A DNA stretch of 64,000 nucleotides, from NCBI GenBank assembly GCA_016841525.1, contig JAENYZ010000004.1:310001-374000 (forward strand), read 5' to 3'. Numbering within the stretch: position 1 is the first letter of the stretch; each line of letters begins with the position of its first letter. This DNA is from Anaerolineaceae bacterium. GTDB lineage: Bacteria; Chloroflexota; Anaerolineae; Anaerolineales; Anaerolineaceae. Position numbers and translations under genes: made by a program. Under the pieces are notes generated by a model. It made no database searches and had not been told where the DNA came from. It saw only the letters and a list, made by a program, of their open reading frames with translations. Shown piece by piece: positions 46,235 to 48,427 of the stretch.

Positions 46235-46241
46235 CATAATT

Positions 46242-47555
46242 TTATTGCGTTGCACAGGCAATACAGGGATCAAAGGCGCGCACCACCCTGCCCACAGCCT
46301 TTTCAAGTTCCAGGTTGATCCCACTCGGGGACACATACCGATCACCAGCCACCATCAACGCTCGTTCAATTGCCAGCATATTGTGCACCGTGGGGATAAT
46401 GAACTCTGCATCTTCAATTAATCCATCCTTGACGGTGTAATGGTGCACCAAGGGGCCGCGAGGTGCTTCTACAAGACCGTACCCCTCGCCATCTTTCGGC
46501 TTATAAGGTACATCGGTATCCTCATAGTCCAGATCATTGGATAAGATCTCAATTGCGCGTTCAAAGGCATAGACCATCTCAATCCCCCGACACAAATCAA
46601 ACAAGAGAATGGGGTGCGCTGGTTTGCCAAAGGTCTTTGTTAATCGATCCAGGTAATTATCTGCACAAGGTGTACCCATTGATAGCGCCAGGTTCATCCG
46701 GGCAAGACTGTTCGCACGAAGTACCTGCCCCTTGTAGCTGGATTGACCCGAATAACTGTATTCCGTTTCCTGGTAATCCAGGTACTCCCGGATTAAATGC
46801 GGTGGGAAGCTCGCCCTTTCTGAACCATCCGGGCCGAGAACACGGATCGTGTCGCTGTTCAACTGAGGTCGGGTTCTGCCTGTGGAAGCAATGTAAAAAG
46901 CTGGCTGGTCATCGCCCCAAGTGCCAATACGCTCGCGCATCGCCAATGACATTTCCCAGTATTCATCAAATAAGGTACAGGCGATTGGCAGCATTTCCTT
47001 GACCTCGGAAAGCATTTTTTCCGCATCTTCCTTTTTGATCCCGCTGGTTATCCCGCCAATGATTGCTTTGACAGGATGGATGAACTGCCCACCTGCCAGG
47101 GTGATCAGCTTTGTGCCAATTTGCCGGACTTTCAAAGCCCGTTGGGCAAGGCTGAGCTGCTGCTCCGGATCTGCTTCGCTTTCATCCATGTGAAATATAC
47201 TGCTTGCACCAACACGGTCTGGCATGGTGAAGATAAACAAGGAGGTTGCCTGGTTCTGAATCAATTGACCGAGCAATAACAATTCCCTGATTTCCTTAGC
47301 CAACTCAGGCGGTTCCACTTCGAAAATGTCCTCAAGGGCTTTAACCGATGCAACGTGATGAGCGGTGGAGCACACACCGCAGATGCGAGGCACAATCACC
47401 GGCATTTGTTCCGCAGGGGTGCCTTGCATAAAGTATCGAAAACCACGCATTTCAATCGCCTGGAATTGGGCAGAAATAACTTTGCCATCCTCAACTTCCA
47501 TTTCAACCCGGGCGTGTCCTTCAATCCTGCTGAGGGGGAAACGTAAAGTAGTCAT
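46242..47555 (-). CDS. [NiFe]-hydrogenase large subunit (group 3-like), no C-terminal extension
   Basis: L1 motif RICGVCSTAHHVASVKALED; L2 motif DPCIACATQ followed directly by TAA. Confidence 0.9.
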   Translation of the reverse strand: MTTLRFPLSRIEGHARVEMEVEDGKVISAQFQAIEMRGFRYFMQGTPAEQMPVIVPRICGVCSTAHHVASVKALEDIFEVEPPELAKEIRELLLLGQLIQNQATSLFIFTMPDRVGASSIFHMDESEADPEQQLSLAQRALKVRQIGTKLITLAGGQFIHPVKAIIGGITSGIKKEDAEKMLSEVKEMLPIACTLFDEYWEMSLAMRERIGTWGDDQPAFYIASTGRTRPQLNSDTIRVLGPDGSERASFPPHLIREYLDYQETEYSYSGQSSYKGQVLRANSLARMNLALSMGTPCADNYLDRLTKTFGKPAHPILLFDLCRGIEMVYAFERAIEILSNDLDYEDTDVPYKPKDGEGYGLVEAPRGPLVHHYTVKDGLIEDAEFIIPTVHNMLAIERALMVAGDRYVSPSGINLELEKAVGRVVRAFDPCIACATQ

Positions 47556-48427
47556 TAAAGCACCTTCTCTTTCGATCTTGCTGGACCGCCATTGCCCATG
47601 TAGTCCGCAAACTGGAAAAGGAATAATGAGAGCTGCGGTGAGTGCAGGGCATCATAGATTTCCTGGGGTGGAATATCCGTCAGCCTCTCAAAAACTTGCT
47701 GCACCCTGTCAAACCAGACCGAGGATTCCTTTTCAATATACGCATCAGAAGGACCCCGGCAGCCCACGCAGGGATGACCAGGCCGGGTGCAAATTGCCCG
47801 GCAGCCCCCGCGTGTGGAGGAACCAACGCATAAGTAACCCTGGTTGATCAGGCAAATATCTGGCAGAACCTCCCCCTGCTGAAAGCCCAATAGGTGTTTG
47901 GGACGCATATCTTTGAGCTTTTTCCGCCCACATTCCTGGCACACAATGCTGCTTGCTTGAAAATTCTCAGGACCAGTCAACGCACCCATAAAGAGTTCTG
48001 GTGTCGGCGGGCATCCGGGAAGGTACAGGTCCACATCAACAAAGGCATCAATCGGTCTGCTTTTGGGTAAGAGGTGCGGCAGGTGATGGCGATTTGCCTG
48101 CGCCATAAACATTTCCCGCACTTCATCACGATCACCCAAATTTGCAACACCGCCAGAAATGGCACATGTTCCCACGGCAATGACCCTGTCTACAATCTTA
48201 ACGGCACGCCGCAGGTTATAAACATCTTCATCGTTTCGAACGCCGCCGCTCACCAGGAGGATCTCTGTATCCTCAGGGACGGTATGGGTTGAGACAACCA
48301 GGGGCATATACACCAGTTGATATTTCTCAACCCATTCGTTGGCGTTCAGCAGTGAAACTTCGCAGCCAGCACATCCGGAAAGCTGCAGCACGGCGAAGCG
48401 TGGTAGGCTTTGGTTTATTAGGCTCAT
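47555..48427 (-). CDS. [NiFe]-hydrogenase small subunit
   Basis: LQLSGCAGCEVSLLN; VGTCAISGGVANLGDRDEV; DLYLPGCPPTPELFMGAL; C-terminal Cys-rich cluster region GYLCVGSSTRGGCRAICTRPGHPCVGCRGPSD. ATG 48427 (within ORF ..48463) preceded by AAAGGACC. Confidence 0.92.
   Translation of the reverse strand: MSLINQSLPRFAVLQLSGCAGCEVSLLNANEWVEKYQLVYMPLVVSTHTVPEDTEILLVSGGVRNDEDVYNLRRAVKIVDRVIAVGTCAISGGVANLGDRDEVREMFMAQANRHHLPHLLPKSRPIDAFVDVDLYLPGCPPTPELFMGALTGPENFQASSIVCQECGRKKLKDMRPKHLLGFQQGEVLPDICLINQGYLCVGSSTRGGCRAICTRPGHPCVGCRGPSDAYIEKESSVWFDRVQQVFERLTDIPPQEIYDALHSPQLSLFLFQFADYMGNGGPARSKEKVL

Follow-up and report, generated by a model that had tools for sequence, protein, structure and literature searches.

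The locus considered here lies in a 64-kb window, meaning the whole stretch of DNA that was analysed, from a Brevefilum-like member of Anaerolineaceae. The question it raises is whether a [NiFe]-hydrogenase large subunit that ends directly at its L2 motif, with Gln in the place of the terminal His, can be a genuine enzyme. Published hydrogenases that naturally have no C-terminal extension belong only to groups 2b, 2d, 4c, 4e and 4g (PMC7294309, PMC12134894), and no report of an extensionless group 3 hydrogenase was found in the open-access literature. An earlier note on this DNA had claimed that the large subunit stops right after DPCIACATQ and that its last residue is Gln (caa) rather than His, and reading of the strand together with the open reading frame confirmed both statements (Table 1). 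The minus strand from 46271 to 46242 is GAT CCC TGT ATT GCC TGT GCA ACG CAA TAA, and on the plus strand the TTA corresponding to the stop abuts the TTG (46245-46247) that corresponds to the CAA codon of Gln437.

Table 1. Positions of the hydrogenase features within the window.
Feature	Position	Strand	Remarks
[NiFe]-hydrogenase large subunit, natively without C-terminal extension	46242..47555	-	ORF, 437 aa
Stop codon TAA, immediately 3' of the L2 motif	46242..46244	-	Orthologues: same position with TAA, TAG or TGA
L2 motif DPCIACATQ; active-site Cys431 and Cys434; terminal Gln437 replaces His	46245..46271	-	
L1 motif RICGVC; active-site Cys59 and Cys62	47370..47387	-	Invariant
Arg40 where the metal-ligand Glu is expected (RGFE to RGFR), 19 residues before Cys59	47436..47438	-	
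Small subunit, MvhG/VhuG-like, about 290 aa	47555..48427	-	From ATG 48427; starts in the clade lie near here

The protein pair and its extensionless end

The large subunit matches PF00374 (E 7e-35), and its best sequence match in the PDB is MvhA (5odc_F, E 7e-67). The same chain was the best fold match of an AlphaFold2 model (pLDDT 88.5, pTM 0.90), the leading matches being MvhA, the HydABCSL large subunit and HoxH, at a TM-score of about 0.9. Both the RxCGxC (L1) and the DPCxxC (L2) motifs are present, the four NiFe-ligand cysteines (59, 62, 431 and 434) are invariant in the clade, and Glu12, Asp113 and Arg366 are invariant as well. A small subunit (PF01058) is encoded upstream, its stop codon sharing one base with the large-subunit start (taATG) and its longest frame beginning at GTG 48463. 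Twelve of its cysteines are invariant in 17 loci, as expected for three FeS clusters.

The earlier note had itself named the risk that a sequencing error or local frameshift conceals the His and an extension, and had proposed a check of the read at 46240-46260. Orthologues from independent assemblies, the isolate Longilinea arvoryzae KOME-1 included, repeat the end with CAG-TAA, CAG-TAG or CAA-TAA, and they share it with various stop codons and with unrelated sequence beyond. An error of this kind is thus ruled out by the orthologue ends and is left with a negligible chance.

Homologues were collected from the genome contigs of close relatives, from a phylum sample of 400 genomes and from a class sample of 396 genomes, all from Chloroflexota. 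Twenty-nine different sequences from the class Anaerolineae (57-98% identical) had a readable C-terminus, and all of them stop at the motif, 17 with CATH, 8 with CATQ, 3 with CATK and 1 with CATQH. The CATQ end was found in Brevefilum, Longilinea and other Anaerolineaceae, including the window, the CATK end in a sister genus and the CATH end in other families. The codons at the end vary (CAA/CAG, AAG, CAC/CAT), as do the stops and the sequence after them, which argues that the end is kept by selection and is not a shared error. The comparison of Chloroflexota C-termini proposed in the earlier note therefore came out in favour of its view that the extension is naturally absent: the same end runs through the whole orthologous clade, and an extension is seen in the next-nearest homologues in the phylum sample (31-35% identity), where 13 of 13 run about 25 residues or more beyond the His. 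The CATQH-stop end, in locus L054 (G696:C102), is a one-residue change at an otherwise fixed end.

The extensionless sequences form a monophyletic clade (100/100). A quick tree was also made, its references being HoxH, a Rhodococcus enzyme (3b, judging from the genes around it), Vhu-type sequences and members of groups 1 and 4. There the clade is a separate long branch in group 3 (SH-aLRT 100), next to but outside the clade of 3c and 3d type (SH-aLRT 90). Fold and profile place the large subunit in group 3 too, as does the tree, which holds no group 2 reference. Extensions are present in the group 1 outgroups and in the other group 3 branches and absent in a group-4-like outgroup. Since the former carry them, the simpler reading would be that the extension was lost rather than never gained, the tree alone leaving the direction unproven. 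As judged from the sequences, the absence of the extension dates far back and spans the clade, and the change of His to Gln or Lys came later, in one family.

Among known systems, the 3c enzymes MvhAG and VhuAG are the most similar in several respects. The best NCBIfam models are VhuA (243 bits) and VhuG (147 bits), the best PDB matches by sequence and by fold are to MvhAG (5odc), and the cysteine pattern of the small subunit is equal. However, the scores are far under the VhuA and VhuG cut-offs (800 and 450), identity is about 28-34%, and the pair in the window is without an adjacent MvhD or HdrABC and without an extension, and stands on a separate branch, FlpD being encoded elsewhere in the genome. 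With the 3d HoxH/HoxY and HydABCSL-type enzymes it shares the group 3 fold (7t2r and 5xfa, TM 0.90-0.91). An enzyme of this bidirectional HoxH/HydABCSL type is also encoded in the window's genome, on contig C4; unlike the enzyme in the window, the HoxH type has an extension, a HoxW-like protease alongside, a small subunit of about 180 aa and adjacent diaphorase genes. The H2 sensors of groups 2b and 2d, CooH (4c), Ech (4e) and 4g likewise end at the L2 motif and use the Hyp machinery (PMC7294309, PMC12134894), but they belong to other phylogenetic groups and have kinase or membrane partners. In contrast to the group 4 enzymes Ech and CooH, the enzyme in the window has neither a PF00346 match nor a membrane partner. 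A third large-subunit-like protein of the genome (L020:8868-10082; minus strand of G000:C5, about 953 kb) is group-4/Nuo-like and lies in a membrane-subunit operon. It also has no extension and ends with DLCIACADR-stop, DPC having become DLC.

Maturation and the C-terminal metal site

An extensionless large subunit is known to be able to mature in one engineered case, the membrane-bound hydrogenase of Ralstonia eutropha, in which pre-processed HoxG still gave active enzyme; this was an artificial deletion with suboptimal maturation and with the His kept (PMC7294309). When HoxH and HybC were shortened in the corresponding way the enzyme was inactive, and group 3d HoxH with its peptide deleted was without nickel (PMC7294309). 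A natural group 3 lineage that has no peptide, sometimes in genomes without a protease, contrasts with this nickel-free HoxH, and its comparison with extended group 3 relatives can reveal what has to change for the peptide to become unnecessary.

The absence of hyp and protease genes nearby, as described in the earlier note, holds for the window but not for the genome (3.2 Mb, 97% complete). There hypE, D, C, F, B and A lie on contig C4, whereas the window is on C1, and the only HypD and the only TIGR00072 matches are both on C4. The search for endopeptidases thus returned a single protease of 165 aa (L019:9914-10411; TIGR00072 60 bits, cut-off 47), which adjoins a canonical large subunit with an extension. 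The TIGR00072 cut-off was used as the protease test instead of PF01750, because the latter misses the genome's own protease. The Pfam HycI model (PF01750) does not see this protein even at E 1, and surveys based on Pfam alone will overlook such proteases in Anaerolineae.

Nineteen genomes bearing the enzyme were compared. In 14 there is another non-Nuo-like large subunit, with the extension seen directly in 12 of these, and each of the 14 also encodes a protease above the cut-off. The remaining five (G349, G136, G735, G601 and G583) have no second large subunit, and none has an intact protease above the cut-off (14/14 vs 0/5; Fisher P 8.6e-5, kinship uncorrected). HypD was found in 18 of the 19, including all five protease-less genomes, and in three of these hypA to hypF lie in one stretch. 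The genomes without a protease are drafts, with 90-99% completeness and up to 8% contamination; in G349 the C-terminus of the large subunit lies off the contig, and a diverged protease may lie under HMM detection. Given five genomes with HypD yet without an intact protease, the Hyp machinery probably matures the enzyme with no proteolytic step, which supports the suggestion of the earlier note that it may mature without a protease. In G136 (C10, 96251-96713; L155, L158), a 99% complete genome whose sole [NiFe] large subunit is extensionless, the gene for a maturation protease is broken by a frameshift, which may mark a relic or an error.

In the proposed scheme, HypCDEF would deliver Fe(CN)2CO and HypAB nickel, and the closing step would be made, in place of proteolysis, by an already final C-terminus that folds over the cofactor and by docking of the small subunit.

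An ion in FrhA is coordinated by His386 at the C-terminus together with Glu44, which lies 19 residues before Cys63, the first L1 cysteine (PMC3591093), and other large-subunit structures show a Mg2+ in contact with the last His (PMC3940037). Every extended sequence compared, 3b, 3d and group 1 included, has Glu at the aligned position, and this Glu is kept in 14 of the 16 clade members that end with His or QH. The two exceptions end with His and have Arg (L047) or Thr (L049). Position 40 is Arg in all CATQ members with a readable N-terminal part and Ser in all CATK members, so that Glu40 and His437 are jointly lost in 9 of 9 Anaerolineaceae rows, a linked loss that is absent from the earlier note. 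The His was lost a single time, on the Anaerolineaceae branch (100/99), where Gln probably came first and Lys is nested within. Coupling between the two losses is suggestive; it is not statistically independent, since there was one His-loss event and two His-ending sequences have no Glu.

Because the Glu ligand was lost along with the His, Anaerolineaceae probably no longer have the Mg site. There the Glu/His pair, which normally binds the C-terminal Mg2+ (or Fe) beside the active site, became Arg/Gln in Brevefilum and Longilinea and Ser/Lys in the sister genus, and it is likely that the metal site decayed and gave way to a side-chain arrangement. In this arrangement the cation of Arg40 or Lys437 may take the place of Mg2+. 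Residues 434-437 of the AlphaFold2 model have pLDDT <50, so the replacement arrangement is not visible and no geometric claim is made. The Anaerolineaceae members offer a natural test of the role of the C-terminal Mg2+.

Function and rival explanations

Only the small and large subunit genes are conserved together, and their flanks differ among loci. No conserved kinase, flavoprotein, Hdr or membrane subunit was found in the flanks of about 20 loci, and in the loci read the co-directional neighbours were unrelated, with no sensor kinase or cyclase module nearby. A lone conserved pair without such neighbours makes a sensor role unlikely; a catalytic role is expected, with a partner encoded elsewhere. 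We consider it probable, on the evidence of sequence comparison, that the two subunits form a genuine group 3 [NiFe]-hydrogenase, which stands alone, is probably active and belongs to a lineage that dispensed with the C-terminal maturation peptide. The electrons of H2 evolution or uptake would pass through a soluble carrier of single electrons or through an FeS/flavin partner encoded elsewhere. The fuller proposal, of an undescribed group 3 lineage that combines the stand-alone pair, protease-free maturation and, in one family, replacement of the near-universal C-terminal Mg2+ site (Glu and terminal His) by Arg/Gln or Ser/Lys while still catalytic, is advanced tentatively, at somewhat under even chances. 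An enzyme made from two genes with no need of a protease would be simpler to produce in a heterologous host.

The earlier note also suggested that the enzyme may be regulatory, that is, an H2-sensing hydrogenase of the HupUV/HoxBC type which signals through a kinase and is natively without the extension. The missing extension, as in groups 2b and 2d (PMC7294309), and the lack of an obvious catalytic redox partner gene alongside would fit such a sensor. The large subunit nevertheless branches inside group 3, with VhuA and VhuG as the best models, no conserved PAS/kinase or regulator gene is adjacent in about 20 loci, and several genomes have no further [NiFe] enzyme, so that among [NiFe] hydrogenases a sensor would have nothing there to regulate. 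This part of the earlier note is not supported, and a sensor is very unlikely. It is also improbable, though not quite to that degree, that the protein is degenerating or inactive, or a scaffold like HoxV or HupK, with a C-terminus truncated by mutation. Loss of both the terminal His and the metal-ligand Glu in the window's family could be read in this way, but the four Cys ligands and the outer-sphere residues are invariant, as are the 12 FeS cysteines of the partner, 29 sequences share the position of the stop, and the small-large pair is retained despite changing flanks.

A refinement of the preferred reading, of a catalytic stand-alone pair, would have it dock as an MvhAG-type module on an HdrA-FlpD (MvhD) unit encoded elsewhere and take part in flavin-based bifurcation. 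The best sequence matches, MvhA and MvhG, agree with this, and FlpD genes were found in 24 of 27 carriers of the hydrogenase vs 214 of 369 non-carriers (Fisher P 0.001, kinship uncorrected). Yet three carriers have no FlpD match, most non-carriers have FlpD, FlpD was never adjacent to the hydrogenase in the loci read, and the enrichment may stem from shared ancestry. The refinement is rated as rather unlikely. In Anaerolineaceae FlpD lies within an aldehyde-oxidoreductase/Hdr-like operon (L189 and L190; gene names from sequence), and for this reason the enrichment is taken only as a lead. The operon (L189:3241-13025 and L190:5889-15666) reads as an aldehyde oxidoreductase with HdrA-FlpD, HdrBC-like and FeS/FAD subunits, and operons of this type might provide the hydrogenase with a redox partner encoded apart from it. 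In the small subunits, the MvhG match is followed by a conserved tail of ~40 residues (SPQLSLFLFQFxDY...KEKVL; in the window, 47555-47700), which is perhaps a partner-docking surface.
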